This document shows, in pieces, positions 16,953-27,113 of a stretch of DNA of 34,181 bases (positions are counted from its first letter, which is position 1; each line of letters begins with the position of its first letter). The translations under genes were made by a program, and so were the position numbers. The DNA lies in the NCBI GenBank assembly GCA_014380485.1, contig JACMJU010000140.1:1-34181 (forward strand), given 5' to 3'. This stretch comes from Methyloceanibacter sp. Lineage in GTDB: Bacteria; Pseudomonadota; Alphaproteobacteria; Rhizobiales; Methyloligellaceae. The notes below the pieces were generated by a model that made no database searches, was not told the DNA's origin, and saw only the letters and a program-made list of their open reading frames with translations.

Positions 16953-19328
16953 TCAGCGCAGGAGACGGTCGATCTCGGGATCTTCGGGTTCGGCTGCGTC
17001 GCCCTGCTCCGCCGCGCCGGCATTCGGACCGGGCTTCACTTGCGGCGCTTCTTTCTTGCCGGAGCGCTGCCGGTTTTCCTCAGCCTCGCTCCCGCCGCTT
17101 TCGCCGTCACCGCGCTGCTCGATCTGAATATCGCCGAGAAAACGGCCGAGCGCCTCGCCGACCGGCTTCCCCTTGAACTTCTTTTGCAGCGCCTTGCCGA
17201 TCTGGTTGACGGCCTTGCCGGCCTTCTCGGGATTGGCGAGCAGCGTCTTGATCTCTGGACTTATGGTGGGCCGGTCGAGCGGCCCCTCGATGCGTATCGG
17301 CACGGAGAGCCCGGCAAGATCGTTGGCACCCCGTTGCCCTTCGGGTCCGGCGACGATCTCGGGATTGGCGAGGAGGTCGATCGTGCCTTGCACCAGGTTC
17401 ACGGTCCCGGCGGCCGCCACCTTGAGCAGCGGACTCGTCGCTGTGAGATTGTCGGTCTCGGCGATGCCGTTCTTGATGGTGAAGCTCCCGCCGAGATCGG
17501 TGAACGCGGTCTTGGCGCCCGGTCCCTGGCGCAGGTCCGGTATCTCGCCCGCCCCGAGCTGCCCGATCATCTCGCTGAGGTTGACGCCGTCGATCGCACC
17601 ATTGCTTACGGCGATACTACCCTGTCCGGCGAGCGAGGATTTGATCTCCTCGGCGCTTCGGCCCATGCCGCTGATCTCAAGCGCGAGCTTTGTGTGGCCC
17701 TCAAGCAAGCTGAACTGGGCCGCATCGGAGAGCAGGGTCTTGGCCTGCACGCCGTCGAGCAGAAAGTCCCCGGTGAAGGCGGGAACCGGTTTGGTGGCGT
17801 CGAGCACGAGCTTCCCGCTGGCATGACCGTCATAGAGGTCCATGCCGCCGAGCGTGGCGTTCAGCACGCCGTCGCGGAAGGCAAGACCGAGCGAGCTCGG
17901 CCCGAGCTCGAGATGAAAGACGCGGGTCTTGCGCACATTGAGATTGACGTCGGCGTCGAAGGAGGCGGGCGAGGCCGTCTTCGCCGGCACGGGAGCGGCG
18001 GGAGCGGTTTGCGGAGCCGGACTTGCGGATTCGGACGGGGCGGTCTCGGCCGGGGCGGTCTCGACCGGGACGCCGGGCTCGGCGTCTTGCACGCCTGCAC
18101 CTGCGCTCCGGTCCGCTTCCGGCTTGGTGAACCAGTCTTTCGCTCCTTGAGCGTCAGCAGGCGTGCCACTCTCGGCCCGGGGCGCAGCGCTTGGCTCGGA
18201 AGGCGACGGCTTGCGGTCCGCTTGCTCCGCCTTCGGCCCCGCCGCAAGAAATGGATTGAGGTCGAGATAGTCGAGCGCCAGCGCCGCCCTGATATGAGGT
18301 CGCGGCGCGCGAAAGGCGACCACCGCTTGCCCTTGGCCGCGCGCGTGCTCGAGCGCAAAGCGGGCGTTGCTGAAGGTGATTTCATCGTTCTTCCACGCGA
18401 CATGGCTGGCAAGCTCGCCATCGCCGATGCCGGTGGTGGCGGCGGGCTTTTCCCGCATCCAGGCGAGGAGCGAAGGAACCGAGTGGGCCTTGGCGGACAG
18501 TTCGCCCTGCCCGGTCAGGCTCGGCCGGGTCAGCAAGCTGCCATCGAAGCGCGCGGCGAGAGAAGGAGTGTCCAAAGCAAGCACCAGTCTCGCCGGGCGC
18601 TTCTCGCGGAGGTCGGCGACGGAGGTCAGCTCGAAACTGAAGTCGACCGTCTGCTCTTTCCAGTCGAACTTGCCCGATCCGGTGAAGGGCGCGGTGAGCG
18701 TCGGCAGGCTGAGACTAGCGGCGATGTGTTCGACGCGACGCGCGGTGCCTTTCGCGTCGTAAACGATGTTGACCGTGCCGTCCTCGATACGCACGTCCCT
18801 GAGCTTTACGTCGCGGCGGGGCTTGGCGCTGGGATCTGTGGCTTTGGCCGTTTTGGGCTTCTTTGGCTGCCGGTCGTCATCGCCGAGGCGCAGCGTCAGC
18901 ACCGGCCGCTCCAGCACGATGCGCTCGGCATCGATGTTACGGCTCATCAGCTCCATCAGACTGACATCGATGACCAGTCGCGCCACGGAGAAGTCCGTCG
19001 TGCCCGCGCGCGCCTCGGGATCGACAAAGGTCGCGTCGGTGATGACGACGTGGGGACCCGGGGTAAAGAGGAGCGCAGTCGTGCCTTTGACTGTGAGTTC
19101 GCGCCCCGTTTGCTCCTTGATGCGATTGGCCACGCGGTCGCGGACCCAATCCGCCGAAATGAGGAGATTGACGGCAACGAGGACGAGCAAGGCTGCGCCG
19201 ACAATCGTTCCGGCAACGATCAGCAAGAGCCGGGTGCGCCGGTTCATGGCCGGTTGCGCGGGGCGCTTTGGCGCCGGCGCGTTTCGATGCTCCTGAGACG
19301 GCGGTGTGGGGGGTTGGTGGCTGTGCAT
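16953..19328 (-). CDS. AsmA family protein
   Basis: N-terminal TM (RTRLLLIVAGTIVGAALLVLVAVNLLI), GRELTVKGTTALLFTPGPHVVITDATF, and C-terminal SAEEIKSSLAGQGSIAVSNGAIDGVNL...PIRIEGPLDRPTISPEI. An alternative start is at 19247. Confidence 0.9.
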   Translation of the reverse strand: MHSHQPPTPPSQEHRNAPAPKRPAQPAMNRRTRLLLIVAGTIVGAALLVLVAVNLLISADWVRDRVANRIKEQTGRELTVKGTTALLFTPGPHVVITDATFVDPEARAGTTDFSVARLVIDVSLMELMSRNIDAERIVLERPVLTLRLGDDDRQPKKPKTAKATDPSAKPRRDVKLRDVRIEDGTVNIVYDAKGTARRVEHIAASLSLPTLTAPFTGSGKFDWKEQTVDFSFELTSVADLREKRPARLVLALDTPSLAARFDGSLLTRPSLTGQGELSAKAHSVPSLLAWMREKPAATTGIGDGELASHVAWKNDEITFSNARFALEHARGQGQAVVAFRAPRPHIRAALALDYLDLNPFLAAGPKAEQADRKPSPSEPSAAPRAESGTPADAQGAKDWFTKPEADRSAGAGVQDAEPGVPVETAPAETAPSESASPAPQTAPAAPVPAKTASPASFDADVNLNVRKTRVFHLELGPSSLGLAFRDGVLNATLGGMDLYDGHASGKLVLDATKPVPAFTGDFLLDGVQAKTLLSDAAQFSLLEGHTKLALEISGMGRSAEEIKSSLAGQGSIAVSNGAIDGVNLSEMIGQLGAGEIPDLRQGPGAKTAFTDLGGSFTIKNGIAETDNLTATSPLLKVAAAGTVNLVQGTIDLLANPEIVAGPEGQRGANDLAGLSVPIRIEGPLDRPTISPEIKTLLANPEKAGKAVNQIGKALQKKFKGKPVGEALGRFLGDIQIEQRGDGESGGSEAEENRQRSGKKEAPQVKPGPNAGAAEQGDAAEPEDPEIDRLLR

Positions 19329-19406: not shown

Positions 19407-20496
19407 TCAGCGCACCAGAATGGCGTGATTATCCCAATGAAATTGTGAAGCCCGGCGCGACACGGCACCGCGCGGGCCGGCGGTGACGAGCCACCCCTCG
19501 CCGCTGGTGAGGAGGAAGCTCGCGCTGCGATGCGTCGGCGCCAGTCCGCACCCGTCCCTCAAGTCGCAGGCGCCGAGATAGCGCCGGCTTGCCACGTCCC
19601 AATAGGTGACGTGGCCGCCTTTGGGCGCCGAAGCGGCGACGATACCGCCGCTCCGGTCGGCAGCCACCGACCCGATATAGTTGCGCAACGCGCTCTGCAT
19701 CGGCCCGGGCGCCTCGACGATGACCGGCGTCTCTCCCCTGCGGTGAAAGCCGATCAACGCCGGCGCATCTCCTTCAGGCCCGCGATACTGGCAGCCGAAT
19801 ACGACCGTATCGTCCGCGCCGAGGGCGAGATGGCGGATCGAGAGCTGATGCAGCTCGGGGGCGAGACGATGTTCCTCCAGGAGATCGCCGGTCGCCACAT
19901 CGACATAGACGAGCGAAGGCTGCATCTCGGCGAGGTTCAACTCGTCGGCGCCGCGATGGGGATGGGTGCGGATGCCGCCATTGGCGATCGCCATGACGCG
20001 GCCATCTGCAAGAAGCGCGATATCGTGGGGCTCCATGCCATAAGCCGGGAATTCGCCGATCTGCTTGTAGCCGCCGGTCGCGTCACGCACGCCGATCATT
20101 CCGGCGGCGCTCGTAATCGTTCTCCGTGGCGTAAAGCAGCCTGCCATCCGATGAGAAGGTGCCGTGGCCGAAGAAATGACGCTCAGGTTTCGAGGCGAAC
20201 CAGATCGGGGGCTCTGACCGGAGCGACACCGCCACGCCGAACCGGCCGGCACGCCGCGCGAAGGCGACCCACTCGCCGCCGCCGGGCCTGAGCGCGATAT
20301 CGTGGCCGCGTCCCGGAAGCTCGATCGCCTGCTCGTCGCCCGCAAGGGTGAACAGTGCGGCCTGAAAATTTCCCCTGTCGTCCTTGCGCGAGGCGGCGAA
20401 GCACTCGGGCTCAAACGGGACGGCACGCCGCGGACAAGACAGCGCAACGGCGCCGCCGGCAAGGCCGGCCAGAAGCGCGCGGCGGTCGAGCGTCAT
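19407..20496 (-). pseudogene. DUF1513-family protein with an apparent frameshift near 20100-20112
   Basis: The N-terminal half is in ORF 20083..20496 (MTLDRRALLAGLAGGAVALS...GRLLYATENDYE). The rest is in a different frame within ORF 19407..20462 (AAGMIGVRDATGGYKQIGEFPAYGMEPHDI...). Confidence 0.7.
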
Positions 20497-20499
20497 GGC

Positions 20500-21570
20500 C
20501 TAATCTCCATCCATGGCATTGAAGCCGAAGGCGAGGCCCGCACCTCGTGAAATCGCATCGGCAGCCGTTTGCGCCGCGCTCTTGAGCGAGACACGCAACG
20601 CCTCGATCTTGTCGCGCGACGCCGCATCTTGGACCACCTTCGCCATGGGCTCGTCGATACCGCTCAAGACATCGATGGCATGGTCGAGGTCGAACAGAAT
20701 AGAGCTCTCGACGCCGGGCGCGTCCTTTGCCACGACTTGCGCGAAGCCGCTTTTGAAGAGTGCGCGCACGCCTTCAAGATTGCCGGCAGCATTGGCGAGG
20801 CTGAGACCGCTCCGCCAGAAGGAAGCGAGCCTGGGCTTGGCCTCAGTGGCGGCGGCGCCGAGGGGCTTGGCGAGTTTCTGGTCGCGTACCAGCTCGATGC
20901 CAGAGGTGAAGGATTTGAACAGGTCGAGCGTGACCTCTTTCGGCGCGCGATAGATTGAATCTTCGGGGCCGGGACTGAGGAACGCTTTGTCGTAGCGCGA
21001 GCCCTCGCGCCAATCCTCGACCACCGACTTGGCGATACGATCGATATTGACGGCGACGGCGAGAGCGAAGGCACAGCGAAAGGCGCCGTCGCCCGCGGGT
21101 GCGGAGAGCGTTTCCGCGCCGTCGCCGAAAAGCAGATATTCGAGGGCGGGCAGGCCCTGCAATGCCACGCTCTTGCCGGGAAGCGCGTCGGGGAGCGTTA
21201 CGGCTTCGTCGCGGCCGGCGAGGGCGGCTTGTATTTGCCTTTGTCCGAGTCCCTTGGGATCTGGCCAGTAGAAGAGACGCTCATAACGGTTTCCCTCGGT
21301 GATCGGACCGAAGCGCAGGATCTCGACTTTGCTCCATGCCCTCACCGCTGCCGCGAATGCGGCCCTGCTTGCTTCGAGGGACGAAGCTGAGGGCTCTCGG
21401 CAAAGCGAGCCGACCTTGTCGTTGAGAGCAGCGGCCTGTTCGGCAAGCGCGGCGTAGCCCGGGCGAATGACCTCCCTCAGCGTGGCTAGGGCAATGGCGG
21501 AATGATCGGCCTCGGCATAAGCGAGCGTCGTGCTCGTGCAGAGCAGCGCTGTCGCGAGCACGTGCCTCAT
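20500..21570 (-). CDS. Imelysin family protein, second paralog (periplasmic)
   Basis: Start at MRHVLATALLCTSTTLAYA (21570), overlapping the upstream stop (ATGA). GKSVALQGLPALEYLLFGDG aligns by eye with the imelysin motif region. Confidence 0.85.
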   Translation of the reverse strand: MRHVLATALLCTSTTLAYAEADHSAIALATLREVIRPGYAALAEQAAALNDKVGSLCREPSASSLEASRAAFAAAVRAWSKVEILRFGPITEGNRYERLFYWPDPKGLGQRQIQAALAGRDEAVTLPDALPGKSVALQGLPALEYLLFGDGAETLSAPAGDGAFRCAFALAVAVNIDRIAKSVVEDWREGSRYDKAFLSPGPEDSIYRAPKEVTLDLFKSFTSGIELVRDQKLAKPLGAAATEAKPRLASFWRSGLSLANAAGNLEGVRALFKSGFAQVVAKDAPGVESSILFDLDHAIDVLSGIDEPMAKVVQDAASRDKIEALRVSLKSAAQTAADAISRGAGLAFGFNAMDGD

Positions 21571-23138
21571 AGCGAGTTCACGAAGGCAAGCAGGGCGTCG
21601 CGGTCGGCTTTGGGGAGGCTTGCGAATTTGTCGCGCGCGCCCTCTCCCTCGCCGCCATGCCAAAGAATGGCCTCGGTCAGGTTCCGCGCCCGTCCGTCGT
21701 GCAGAAACAGCGTATGCCCGCTCACGGTCTCGGTGAGCCCGATGCCCCAGAGCGGCGGCGTGCGCCATTCGCTCCCGGTCGCCGCACCTTCGGGCCTGCC
21801 ATCGGCAAGACCTTCGCCCATGTCGTGCAACAAGAGATCGGTGTAGGGCCAGATCAGTTGATGCGACAGATGGGGCTGGCCCGGCACCTCGCCGGTCACG
21901 AATTTCGGCCGGTGACAGCCTGCACAGCCGATGGCGTAGAAGATCTCCTTGCCCTTCAGCACTTCGAGGTCGCCGGGCTTACGCCGCGCGGGCACGGCGA
22001 GATTCTGGGCGTAGAAAGTCACGAGGTTGAACAGCGCGTCGCCCACTTCGACATTCTGATGTTTGGGCGAGTTGCCGTTCGGCGCCGCGAAGCATGCAAG
22101 CTGTTTTTCGGTGCAGTCGCCGGAGCCATGCGGAAGCATGGTGGTGGACAGGCCGAGATCGCCGCTGAAGGCCTCGGCGTCCTGCTGGGCGATGGTGGGA
22201 ATGCCTGCCTTCCAGCCGAAGCGGCCGAGCATCACCTTGTCGTGCTCGCGCGACCAGACGCGATTGGGTCTGCCGGAGACACCGTCCTTGCCTGGGCCAT
22301 CGGGAGCGGCGTTGGCCAGGATCTGCTCCTCGGGAACGGCTTCGAGCAATCCCAAGCCGATCATCGGCGGGGCCACCCGGGGCGAGAGCATGATTTCGGG
22401 GTTCGTCGGTCCATAAGCGAGATCGGCAATCGCGTAGCTCGGTTCGCGCAGAGAGACGGTTTCGCCGCCGGCAAGGTCCACTTGGCGCTCTCGGTATTCG
22501 ATCTTGAGCTTGCCCTCGGACGCGATGCCTTGAATGGCGAAATCCTGGAGCTGCCCACCATAGACCGGATCGGGAAGCGCGTTCACGCGATGGGCTGCGA
22601 TCTTCTCCCTCTCCTCTCCTGTCGCGGCGGGGACGGAGAGCCTGACCAGCATCGAGCCCGAATCGTCGGAGACATCGGATGAGAACGGCGGATGGCCGCG
22701 GCCATCCTTCAGATGGCAGTTCTGGCAGGCGCGGGCGTTGAACAGCGGCCCCAGTCCATCGGAGGCATCGGTCGAGGACGGCGCCGATATCCAGCTCTTG
22801 CGGAAGATGCCGTTGCCGACCTTGAAATCGAGTTCGCGCTTGAAATCCATGTTGCCGGAGGAGAGCGAGAAGGCGTTGGCGGTCGAGGTCGAGCCGCGCG
22901 ACGTGGCGCCGCCGCCGGGTTTATCCTCTCCCCCTTCGAGCTTGGTGAAGTCCGTGGTGGGTCGAACCAAGTTTTCGGCGGCTTCATCGGCGCCTTCGCC
23001 ATGAGTCTGGAGGACGCCGGCAAAGAGCGGCAGAGCCGCGCCGAAGAGGATTGCGCCAATCAGGCACGCAGGGCGCCCCCGTCTCGACGTTCGGCTCTCC
23101 GGCGACTCTGCTTTGGAACTGGAATGGGGTGAGTGCAC
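21567..23138 (-). CDS. Di-heme oxidoreductase family protein (DUF1111)
   Basis: Two c-type heme motifs, CQNCH (GPLFNARACQNCHLKDGRGHP) and CAGCH (FYAIGCAGCHRPKF), plus LAYGPTNPEIMLSPRVAPPMIGLGLLEAVPE. Confidence 0.92.
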   Translation of the reverse strand: MHSPHSSSKAESPESRTSRRGRPACLIGAILFGAALPLFAGVLQTHGEGADEAAENLVRPTTDFTKLEGGEDKPGGGATSRGSTSTANAFSLSSGNMDFKRELDFKVGNGIFRKSWISAPSSTDASDGLGPLFNARACQNCHLKDGRGHPPFSSDVSDDSGSMLVRLSVPAATGEEREKIAAHRVNALPDPVYGGQLQDFAIQGIASEGKLKIEYRERQVDLAGGETVSLREPSYAIADLAYGPTNPEIMLSPRVAPPMIGLGLLEAVPEEQILANAAPDGPGKDGVSGRPNRVWSREHDKVMLGRFGWKAGIPTIAQQDAEAFSGDLGLSTTMLPHGSGDCTEKQLACFAAPNGNSPKHQNVEVGDALFNLVTFYAQNLAVPARRKPGDLEVLKGKEIFYAIGCAGCHRPKFVTGEVPGQPHLSHQLIWPYTDLLLHDMGEGLADGRPEGAATGSEWRTPPLWGIGLTETVSGHTLFLHDGRARNLTEAILWHGGEGEGARDKFASLPKADRDALLAFVNSL

Positions 23139-23148
23139 GCGTCCTTCT

Positions 23149-24552
23149 TCAGAAGCCTATCGTGGTGCGTGCCCCCACAACCGTTGCGTCCTCGACGCCC
23201 GCCACGTTGCCGCCGGGCTGGAAGATATACTGGAAGTTCGGCTGTAGCGACCAGCCGGGATTGATTTGATAGGTGTAACAGATTTCGATCAGCGCCTCGT
23301 AGTTACGCGGCACGGGCTCGCCGAAATCGACATCGAAGGCCGAGACCCGATCGGAAATGTTGGTGTAGGCGAAGCCGACGGCAAAGGCATCGTCGGGACG
23401 GCCGGGGATCATGCCGGTGAAGGTGACGCCGCCATCGGCATAGAAGTCGATGAGATTGCGGTCTTGTGGCGCGCCGACGAAGCGGGCAAAGATGCCGACG
23501 CCTTTTGTCTCCTCGCTTCCCGGCACGCGCCAGACAAGTTGATCGATGATGCCGTAGAGGCCCCAATTGTGGTCGAGCGGCCTTCCGTCATTGGCCGTGA
23601 CGGCAATGAGCGCGCCGCCCGAATCGAAGCGCTGGTCTTGGAACGTGCCGAAGTGATCCCATCCGCCGATCTTGACGGCGCCGGGAAGCCTGCCCTTCTG
23701 ATTGTAGCGATAGACGCCTTCGACCATCAGCAGAGGGTCGTCGTCGAGCTCGAAGTCGAGACCGTGGTCGTTACACCGCTGCGGATCTTCATTGGCGCAA
23801 GCCGGAGCCGGATCGCCGTTATAGACGCCGATCATAAGGCCGAGCCTCTCGTTCGGATTGATGGCGACGCGGACGCCGGGCGTGGCCAAGGGATAGGCGG
23901 GCCCGCCGCTCGGCAGGTCGGCTGCGGTGATCGAAGGCCAGCCCCAGGTGCCGTTGAGAAAATATCCGCCACCATCGCTGGTGACAAACTCCTCATCGGC
24001 GGCAAGCTGGCCGATGCGCACGGACAGCTTCTCGTTGAACATGGTCTGCTGGAACCACAGCTCGAACAGGCGGGTGGCGTCGGTCGCTTCGAGATTGGAG
24101 ACCGGCATGAGCGAGCCGATATTGGCAGCGGTGATCGAATTGCCGTGGATTTGATAACCGTTGGCGTGGAAGCACAGGCCCCGCCAAAAGCCAAGCTTCT
24201 TCATGTCGGCATTGATATAAAGCTCGAGCACGCCGTCATACTCGCCGCCTTGGTCGAAGCCGCCCCAGTTGTAGAACGTCTCGCCGTAGTAATAGCCGCC
24301 GATGCCGATGCCTGCCCGGGCAAGCCCCTGGCGCACGCCGCCTGCGTCGAGCTTGAAGGCTGCGTCGTCGGGAATGCCGGTATCGGTCACGTCGCAATCG
24401 GCCCTCGCCTCGGCGGGAAGGGCGAAAAGCGCCATGGCCACGGCGAGGGCGCCCATGGCTTTGGAAAGGCTTGCGCGATAAGCGCCCCGGTTCAGTTCGT
24501 GGCCCGATCGTGATCTTGCCAAATCGCTCGGCGCGATCTGCGTCTTCCGCAT
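23149..24552 (-). CDS. Carbohydrate porin, OprB-like outer membrane protein
   Basis: Signal peptide (GALAVAMALFALPAEARA), YNWGGFDQGGEYDGVLELYINADMKKLGFWRGLCFHANGYQIHG and C-terminal PGWSLQPNFQYIFQPGGN...GARTTIGF (terminal Phe). Start at MRKTQIAPS. Confidence 0.87.
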   Translation of the reverse strand: MRKTQIAPSDLARSRSGHELNRGAYRASLSKAMGALAVAMALFALPAEARADCDVTDTGIPDDAAFKLDAGGVRQGLARAGIGIGGYYYGETFYNWGGFDQGGEYDGVLELYINADMKKLGFWRGLCFHANGYQIHGNSITAANIGSLMPVSNLEATDATRLFELWFQQTMFNEKLSVRIGQLAADEEFVTSDGGGYFLNGTWGWPSITAADLPSGGPAYPLATPGVRVAINPNERLGLMIGVYNGDPAPACANEDPQRCNDHGLDFELDDDPLLMVEGVYRYNQKGRLPGAVKIGGWDHFGTFQDQRFDSGGALIAVTANDGRPLDHNWGLYGIIDQLVWRVPGSEETKGVGIFARFVGAPQDRNLIDFYADGGVTFTGMIPGRPDDAFAVGFAYTNISDRVSAFDVDFGEPVPRNYEALIEICYTYQINPGWSLQPNFQYIFQPGGNVAGVEDATVVGARTTIGF

Positions 24553-24604
24553 TTTCGGCCCCCCAAGGCTCTGGCTGTCCTCGTCCCCTGTCTCACCTGC
24601 CCCG

Positions 24605-25927
24605 TCAATTGGGATTTCCCGCTCCCCCGTCGCTCGTGGCCTTGTTTTCGGCTTGCACCTTCTCCGGACTATCGAGACTGTCGGACCCTTCGAACGCAAT
24701 AGCTTTCAGGTCGAGAGTGGCCACGGCACGCTCGATCGCCTTCGTCTGGCCGAGCAGAGCCGAGATCGCGCGCTCGACCACTTCGTTTCCGGCCTCGTTC
24801 CCCTCCCCGATCATCTGATCGTAGGATTCGGTCGTGAGCGCCCGCAAATAGAGCGCGTTCATCGCCTCCATGGTGGCGTCGAGCTTGGCCCTTAACTCCT
24901 CATCGATCTCGGGCGATTTGGCCCTGACCAGTTCCGAGATGCTCGGACCTGACACCAGAGACCTGTCGATTCGGCGATAGGCGCCGAGATAGACATTGCG
25001 GACGCCGAGCGCGTCGAAGAAATGGGAGGCGTGGGTGGTGTCGGAGAAGCAATCGTGCTCCTCCTCGGGATCGTGGATCATCAGCCCGAGCTTCATGCGC
25101 TCTCCGGCGAGCTCCCCGTAAGAAAGGCTGCCGAGACCGGTCATGATCGCGGTGAGGCCGGCCTCGTCGCCGCCCTGCTCGATCGTTCGGCGCGCCTCGC
25201 CGCCCCGTCCCCATTGCCCCGCCATCCAAGCGAGATCGTCGACCAGCAGCTCGGTCACGGCGCGGAGATATTCGGCGCGCCGCACACAGTTGCCGTTCGT
25301 GCATTTCGCGATGTCGAAGTCGCTCGCCCGGCGGGCGCCGTTGCCGGGGCCGGTGCCGTTCAAATCCTGGCCCCAAAGAAGAAATTCGACCGCGTGATAG
25401 CCCGTGGCGACATTGGCCTCGACGCCGCCGGCCTCTTGCAGCGTGTCGGCGAGCAGCTCTTTGCTGATCTTGCTCGCCTCGAGCGTCTTGCCGCCTATGG
25501 TGAGCTTGGCGTTGGCGATCACATTGGCGGCGTAGAGCTCGTTTTCGGGCGACTCGGTGCCGTAGGCCGAAGCGACATAGTCGATCAGTCCCTCGTCGAG
25601 CGGCCAGGCGTTCACCTTGCCTTCCCAATCGTCGACGATGGCGTTGCCGAAGCGATAGGCCTCGGTCTGCATGTAAGGAATGCGGGCGGCGATCCAGGCG
25701 GCGCGCGCGGCGCGAAGGTTGTCCTCCGTCGGCCTGGCGAGCAAGGCGTCGATGGCGAGCTTCAGCGTCCTCGCCGTATCGAGCGAGTCGGTGTAGGCGG
25801 CCTGCGCGATGTCCGCATAGACTTTCAGCACTTCGTTGGGGGCTGGCGCGGGCTCGGCGATGGCAGGCGCGGCAAGACAGATCGCGAGCGTGGCGACCGG
25901 CACAACAGTCGATAGCCGTCTTATCAT
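24605..25927 (-). CDS. Imelysin family protein (IrpA-like)
   Basis: Signal peptide MIRRLSTVVPVATLAICLAAPAIA, NAWPLDEGLIDYV and the GxHxxE motif in ATGYHAVEFLLWGQDLNGTGPG. Confidence 0.93.
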   Translation of the reverse strand: MIRRLSTVVPVATLAICLAAPAIAEPAPAPNEVLKVYADIAQAAYTDSLDTARTLKLAIDALLARPTEDNLRAARAAWIAARIPYMQTEAYRFGNAIVDDWEGKVNAWPLDEGLIDYVASAYGTESPENELYAANVIANAKLTIGGKTLEASKISKELLADTLQEAGGVEANVATGYHAVEFLLWGQDLNGTGPGNGARRASDFDIAKCTNGNCVRRAEYLRAVTELLVDDLAWMAGQWGRGGEARRTIEQGGDEAGLTAIMTGLGSLSYGELAGERMKLGLMIHDPEEEHDCFSDTTHASHFFDALGVRNVYLGAYRRIDRSLVSGPSISELVRAKSPEIDEELRAKLDATMEAMNALYLRALTTESYDQMIGEGNEAGNEVVERAISALLGQTKAIERAVATLDLKAIAFEGSDSLDSPEKVQAENKATSDGGAGNPN

Positions 25928-26061
25928 CGGCGCCCCTTTGTCGTTAGAAGCCCAGAGCCCGGGCCCTCTCGTGGTCTTGGCCGGCAAGGCGTGCACGGCA
26001 AAGAGGAAATTGCGGCGGCCTTTGGGCCGGGACCCTCAGGCCACCGCAAGGTTGAGACGAG

Positions 26062-26095
26062 GAAACGTCCAAAGGCTTATGCCGCGGGACGTTTC
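26062..26095. promoter_or_regulatory. 9-bp perfect inverted repeat GAAACGTCC-N16-GGACGTTTC in the divergent imelysin/LysR intergenic region
   Basis: Arms 26062-26070 and 26087-26095 are exact reverse complements. They could be an operator or an RNA hairpin. Confidence 0.5.
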
Positions 26096-26192
26096 AGACC
26101 TCCGGGCTGGGCAGCCGGATGCCTTGTCATGACCCTAGTGCCAAAGGTAACATGCACAAAGTGAACTCTTTTCAGCAGAATTATTGCAAGCA

Positions 26193-27113
26193 ATGCACCT
26201 AAGGGAAGTTGACGCCAATCTCCTGGTGACGCTTGACGCGTTGCTCGTCGACGCCAGCGTTACCCGCGCCGCCGAGCGGCTCGGGCGGAGCGCCTCGGCG
26301 ATCAGCCATGCGCTGGCGAAGCTCCGCGAGATCTTCGCCGACGAGCTGTTCGTGCGCGCGGGCCAGCGGCTCGTGCCGACGGCGAAGGCGCTCGAGCTTG
26401 CGCCCACGGTCCACGTCATTCTCGCCGGCATGGAGAGTTTGCTGCGGCCGAGCAAGCCGTTCGATCCCTCCGAGACCTCGCGCGACTTCGCGATCGCCAC
26501 GAGCGAAGCGGGGGAGCTGATGCTGGTGCAACCGCTGCGCCGGCGGCTCCAACAGCTTGCGCCGAGCGTACGGGTCGGGTGGACACCCTCGAATCGCGAG
26601 GACAACACTGATGCGCTCCGCAGCGGACGATCCCATTTCGTGATCGACATCGAGGGCACGCCGCTCCAGGCGCCCGACATCCGCGTGCTCAAGCTTCGCG
26701 ACGACACCCTCGTCACGCTGGCGCGCCCGGGCCATCCGCTCGCGCGAGCGAAGCCGAAGGCCGCGGCGTTCGCCGCCTCCGGCCACATCGCCGTCCATGG
26801 GCTTCCCGCCATCGCCCTGATCGATGGCGAACTGGCCGCGCAGAAGATCGTCTGCACCGTCACAGCGCGCGTCTCCTCGATGCTGGTTGGGCTGCTGCTC
26901 GCGCTCAACAGCGACGCGTTGCTCACGGTTCCGGCGTCGCTTGCGGCGATTCTCGAGAGGCAGTTCGGGCTTAACCGGGTTCGTCAGCCCTTCAGGCCGA
27001 TCGGCTTTCCGTTGAGGCTGATGTGGCATTCGAGCTACGACCGCGACGAATGCCATGCCTGGGTGCGCGCGGAGCTTGCCAATCTGGTCCACGCGATGGA
27101 AGGCAGCGCGTGA
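26193..27113 (+). CDS. LysR family transcriptional regulator
   Basis: N-terminal HTH MHLREVDANLLVTLDALLVDASVTRAAERLGRSASAISHALAKLREIFADELFVRAGQRLVPTAKA. The ATG at 26193 is preferred over the TTG at 26184. Confidence 0.92.
   Translation: MHLREVDANLLVTLDALLVDASVTRAAERLGRSASAISHALAKLREIFADELFVRAGQRLVPTAKALELAPTVHVILAGMESLLRPSKPFDPSETSRDFAIATSEAGELMLVQPLRRRLQQLAPSVRVGWTPSNREDNTDALRSGRSHFVIDIEGTPLQAPDIRVLKLRDDTLVTLARPGHPLARAKPKAAAFAASGHIAVHGLPAIALIDGELAAQKIVCTVTARVSSMLVGLLLALNSDALLTVPASLAAILERQFGLNRVRQPFRPIGFPLRLMWHSSYDRDECHAWVRAELANLVHAMEGSA

Follow-up and report, generated by a model that had tools for sequence, protein, structure and literature searches.

A porin embedded in an imelysin/di-haem gene cluster of Methyloceanibacter, placed behind a cobalamin riboswitch in several relatives

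Results

The locus and its genes

The window, by which we mean the whole stretch of 34,181 nucleotides analysed here, belongs to a Methyloceanibacter-like metagenome-assembled genome (MAG) of 1.88 Mb. Between positions 19407 and 25927 it holds five genes, all on the minus strand, in the order imelysin, OprB, DHOR/DUF1111, imelysin and DUF1513, just as the earlier note had read them. Imelysin 1 (24605..25927; PF09375, E 3.8e-82) is of the ICMP/IrpA type, and its closest solved structure is IcmP (7xrx, E 3.5e-117). It is followed by an OprB-family outer-membrane porin (23149..24552) and by a di-haem oxidoreductase (21567..23138; PF06537, E 1.7e-93), whose assignment to DHOR rests on the Pfam domain together with two CXXCH haem motifs, CQNCH and CAGCH. 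Imelysin 2 (20500..21570; PF09375, E 5.3e-51) is of the IPPA/PA4372 type. The GxHxxE motif is present in the first imelysin (GYHAVE) and absent from the second, whose motif lacks the histidine and reads GLPALE, a GxxxxE form. A GxxxxE variant with proline at the histidine position has been described for IPPA (PMC9174327), and GLPALE matches it. A GxHxxE imelysin and a GxxxxE imelysin with DUF1111 between them make up the icmP/irpA-type layout. The last gene, encoding a DUF1513 protein (19407..20496), is split by a frameshift near 20110 (20090-20120 of the window), so that PF07433 is spread over two frames; in a MAG, a real frameshift and an assembly error look the same. Broken DHOR or OprB frames, or lost cluster parts, are also seen in several relatives, and in one relative (L157, 8492-9073) a PF00127 cupredoxin-like gene is inserted between DHOR and imelysin 2.

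The genes are tightly packed, with gaps of 52 nt between imelysin 1 and OprB, 10 nt between OprB and DHOR, and 3 nt between imelysin 2 and DUF1513, while DHOR and imelysin 2 overlap by 4 nt (ATGA). This spacing fits a single operon and a common transcript of all five genes. Downstream, the cluster is bordered by an AsmA-family gene (16953..19328, minus strand; PF05170), a border also present in relatives that lost the cluster. Upstream lies a divergent LysR-type regulator gene (26193..27113, plus strand; PF00126 and PF03466), which in relatives adjoins either imelysin 1 or the structured RNA described below. In other genera (L155, L156, L157, L161, L162), a short conserved hairpin (CCGGGGC-TTGAACCCCGATTATTGGGGGA) lies by the ribosome site just before imelysin 1, and stretches resembling it occur in L040 and L165; this hairpin is possibly a translational switch.

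A structured RNA between LysR and imelysin 1

The interval between LysR and imelysin 1 contains a structured RNA of ~130 nt (26001..26135, minus strand; 125 bits with our model R1), which forms three helices: two hairpins and a terminator-like hairpin. Across 20 sequences, whose alignment was fitted to the model and whose slid controls fail, 14 of 29 pairs have both partners changed with pairing preserved; shuffles gave a mean of 7.4, and none of 500 reached as high. An independent alignment of nine sequences gave 6 such pairs versus 1.4. None of the 4227 Rfam families matched the window RNA at E values up to 5, and a second copy gave sub-threshold Rfam matches only. In six genomes (L281-L285, L275) this second copy faces what looks like an ilvE gene in convergent orientation, and the ilvE-side copies mostly have a clean T-run. 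The RNA was found in 8 of the 298 genomes of the order sample, from only two genera, Methyloceanibacter and one sister genus. We regard it as a candidate new RNA family, of which several species have two copies per genome. A small RNA is the favoured reading, since the RNA survives without imelysin genes and has a second copy; the cluster copies could serve as attenuators.

Loss of cluster parts in relatives

Several relatives have lost parts of the locus. In G021 it consists of LysR, the RNA, OprB and AsmA, with no imelysin genes, and in G020 of LysR, the RNA and AsmA, while G010 retains a DUF1513 remnant as a deletion scar. In G015, imelysin 1 is missing between LysR and OprB, after which the contig ends; its genome, which is incomplete, yielded no imelysin match. 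Because the porin is kept in G021 and G015, it does not depend on the imelysins in all relatives.

The porin and its occurrence

The porin covers PF04966 in full (profile positions 2-372 of 372, E 4e-85). Its only solved relatives are the OprB structures 4gf4 and 4gey (E 2e-10), chains named Porin B, which we take to be the OprB of P. putida. Relatives of the porin are present in 16 of 30 genomes of the family. Ten genomes of the genus, counting that of the window, share the order imelysin 1-OprB-DHOR, so the arrangement is not due to chance. A tree of OprB sequences unites the porins of this locus in a single clade (97/97), with the exception of that of G014, which groups with another OprB lineage and so indicates a second recruitment of OprB in one genome.

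How often an OprB-type porin lies inside imelysin clusters, a survey proposed in the earlier note, was addressed with two sets: 80 named relatives of imelysin 1 and a phylum-wide sample of 51 loci. In these samples the co-occurrence seen within the genus does not extend beyond it: OprB stands between imelysin 1 and DHOR in one of the 80 relatives, Methyloceanibacter itself, and in none of the 51 loci. OprB is thus a lineage trait and not part of the general cluster, and most of the clusters surveyed have no porin of any kind. We found no paper on a porin inside an imelysin cluster in the open-licence literature.

The slot between imelysin 1 and DHOR is itself variable. Its commonest state among the survey loci is imelysin 1 directly beside DHOR, followed by bfd-bfr (23 of the 80 named relatives, with bfd alone in one more) and then by other genes, among which are a MauG/MbnH-like protein (L039) and two that were judged by eye, an ApbE-like protein in L169 and an apparent multicopper oxidase in L188. 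Two further porin-like families also occupy the slot: P2 in L035, L040, L043, L157 and L165, of which L043 and L165 appear to be one genome, and P3 in L051, L155 and L156. A relationship of P2 or P3 to OprB or to each other was rejected, as no profile alignment joins any of the three, and an identification of P3 as an LbtU-type siderophore porin was rejected for want of an NCBIfam or Pfam match. AlphaFold gave only poor models for P2 (pLDDT 41) and P3 (pLDDT 44), so that their structural matches, chiefly to porins and with porins as the best PDB matches, identify only a porin-class barrel. Judging from these predicted families, porins of two unrelated types entered the slot independently in other Hyphomicrobiales, as did a second OprB lineage in one genome. 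The repeated entry of porins, together with the frequent bacterioferritin in the same slot, supports a metal-linked role for a porin placed there. The idea that the porin is an outer-membrane partner of the cluster hence gains from the repeated arrival of porins between imelysin and DHOR, which favours a functional partner, and loses from the absence of OprB itself in the 51 loci.

Iron control

Before imelysin 1 of the window, patterns for Fur, Irr (ICE) and RirA scored no better than in shuffles, and an Irr-type box had no match there in the window or its genus mates; an iron regulator of another kind may act at this site. Farther afield, an Irr box with at most two mismatches was found in 26 of 147 regions upstream of imelysin 1, against 0 of 2940 shuffles, in loci that are mostly from Mesorhizobium and Roseibium, many of them closely related. 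In Rhodobacter sphaeroides, hemP-irpA-bfd-bfr-RSP_1545-1543 has been reported to be co-transcribed, with a two-haem protein and two hypothetical genes after bfr (PMC4618611). Under low iron, expression of Rhodobacter irpA goes up 4- to 20-fold (PMC3413700), and OxyR influences its induction (PMC4176601). Taken together, the Irr boxes in relatives and the published induction in Rhodobacter bear out the link to iron that had been proposed for the imelysin/DHOR/imelysin/DUF1513 cluster. In addition, an OprB-domain porin, Slr1908, supports iron uptake in Synechocystis (PMC8707739). No TonB receptors were found in the genome of the window, an absence that we set aside, given that this MAG has a completeness of 86% and yielded no ExbD/TolR match either.

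Cobalamin riboswitches before the porin

In the window, no RF00174 aptamer precedes oprB, and the gap to imelysin 1 is only 52 nt. In relatives, RF00174 lies directly upstream of eight OprB copies: four within an imelysin cluster (G006, G008, G009, G018), one at the same locus lacking imelysin 1 (G015), and three elsewhere in the genome (G004, G005, G009). A promoter-like TTGAC sequence before the aptamer is kept in all eight, and five porins at this locus therefore carry a cobalamin riboswitch and a promoter-like sequence of their own. Several cluster copies still show, upstream of the riboswitch, the former ribosome site and start region of oprB that the window has, and the tree places most riboswitch-less cluster copies as basal, although G004 and G016, which lie inside the derived clade, lack the riboswitch. 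From the remnant and the tree, it is more likely that the riboswitch was inserted in a derived clade and that the window shows the ancestral state. Depending on its mode of action, the riboswitch may also influence DHOR and imelysin 2.

OprB in several relatives is probably switched by vitamin B12. Further riboswitches in these genomes precede genes that, judged by eye, appear to encode cobalamin synthesis, CbiM, HupE, CbtA-like cobalt import and btuB. Among 20 loci with OprB homologues from elsewhere in the class, a single riboswitch lay nearby, and it reads away from the porin gene (L120 3037-3264, another alphaproteobacterium); none was found near P2 and P3 porins in the six loci scanned. 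Stand-alone riboswitch-OprB copies in L152, L153 and L261 have apparent genes for heavy-metal RND efflux in their neighbourhood, joined in L153 and L261 by one for a TonB-dependent receptor.

Discussion

We read the locus as an iron cluster of a known kind, in a variant with an exchangeable porin that B12/cobalt partly controls. Because the porin is probably switched by B12 in several relatives and sits in an iron cluster, it may admit metals such as iron or cobalt. Our working explanation, to which we give about an even chance, is that a periplasmic irpA/icmP-type iron-acquisition cluster recruited a metal-permeable outer-membrane porin. The porin would act as a passive channel for small hydrophilic complexes of iron, and probably also of cobalt or for corrinoids; the GxHxxE site of imelysin 1 would capture the metal, the di-haem DHOR would handle electrons for its redox chemistry or release, and imelysin 2 would be a non-catalytic partner. 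As the cluster includes no inner-membrane permease, the metal would go to one encoded elsewhere. In the lineage of the window the porin would simply be co-transcribed with imelysin 1, while in the derived clade of the genus, where the riboswitch occupies the 5' end of the porin gene, an ample supply of B12 should reduce the amount of porin. The analysis and the literature establish the genes and their order, their conservation, the repeated recruitment of porins, the riboswitch matches and the iron regulation of homologous clusters, from which we infer co-transcription, the nature of the substrate, the path of the metal and any redox step.

Several observations count against this explanation: no Fur, Irr or RirA box was found before imelysin 1 of the window, OprB is missing from the sampled imelysin clusters outside the genus and outlasts imelysin genes in G021 and G015, the riboswitch suggests B12 or cobalt and not iron, and the DUF1513 gene of the window is broken and cluster parts are lost in several relatives. 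In the form given in the earlier note, a dedicated iron route independent of TonB is not supported, as OprB was found in 0 of 51 loci, persists without any imelysin gene at the locus in G021 and without imelysin 1 in G015, and in five of the copies at this locus has its own cobalamin riboswitch and promoter-like sequence; some such route may nonetheless exist.

The main rival, which we hold to be possible but on balance unlikely, is that the porin is an independent, B12-regulated porin for cobalt or corrinoids which merely shares the locus, and that the imelysins work without it. The riboswitch lies upstream of the porin in four cluster copies and in four copies outside intact imelysin clusters, the conserved TTGAC suggests a promoter of its own, the porin persists where imelysin genes or imelysin 1 are gone, and any porin is missing from most imelysin clusters. 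However, the window and several other cluster copies have no riboswitch, most of them basal in the tree, and plain neighbourhood does not explain why unrelated porins sit in the same slot of other genera. The recruited channel and the independent porin could both be partly true, since more than one kind of metal complex may go through a passive porin.

It is improbable, in our view, that the main task of the cluster lies with a different metal or with redox stress, such as copper or peroxide, and that iron is secondary. The cupredoxin-like gene in L157, the apparent multicopper oxidase and the MauG/MbnH-like protein in the slot, and the effect of OxyR on Rhodobacter irpA induction (PMC4176601) would all suit such a role, but bacterioferritin and its ferredoxin are the commonest slot genes, and both the Irr boxes and the published induction under iron limitation speak for iron. 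Least probable is an ordinary carbohydrate porin in a fortuitous place, comparable to Pseudomonas OprB and glucose, which has on its side the Pfam family name and solved relatives that are only Porin B chains, but a family name does not fix the substrate, no recognised sugar uptake or catabolism gene was among the neighbours examined, and the riboswitches found are cobalamin riboswitches, not sugar-responsive ones. The earlier note had named a sugar-responsive porin that does not co-occur with imelysin clusters as the outcome contrary to its proposal; co-occurrence is seen, and the porin does have regulation of its own in relatives, but by cobalamin.

A broader and more speculative proposal, which we consider doubtful as a whole, is that Hyphomicrobiales imelysin clusters carry an exchangeable porin module, with at least three unrelated barrel types in the same position, for TonB-independent entry of iron and cobalt, that B12 controls the porin in some members of the genus, and that the whole locus is preceded by a new LysR-linked regulatory RNA. 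Returning to the recruited metal channel, the repeated unrelated porins and the riboswitch make it a concrete and testable candidate for outer-membrane metal entry of imelysin/di-haem clusters, and the riboswitch before the porin links an imelysin cluster to cobalt/B12 supply.

Comparison with known systems

The closest known counterparts are PA4370-PA4373 (icmP) of Pseudomonas aeruginosa and irpA of Rhodobacter, which share with the window a GxHxxE imelysin, a di-haem DUF1111 protein and a GxxxxE imelysin, and which are Fur-regulated or induced by iron limitation (PMC3143127, PMC4618611). Unlike the window, neither cluster has a porin, and the Rhodobacter slot holds bfd-bfr where that of the window holds OprB. 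The ferrous iron transporter EfeUOB is alike in combining an M75-domain periplasmic protein with a haem protein; however, EfeB is a DyP-type peroxidase (PMC9174327), whereas the DHOR of the window is a c-type di-haem protein, and no EfeU permease gene was among the genes identified in the window cluster and its borders. Pseudomonas OprB and Synechocystis Slr1908 belong to the same Pfam family (OprB) as the window porin. Slr1908 has an additional SLH domain that the window porin does not, and in contrast to both, OprB in relatives is under a cobalamin riboswitch. In this respect the riboswitch-OprB copies resemble BtuB, which likewise serves entry at the outer membrane and is encoded right after an RF00174 aptamer, with the difference that OprB belongs to a passive porin family and is not TonB-dependent.
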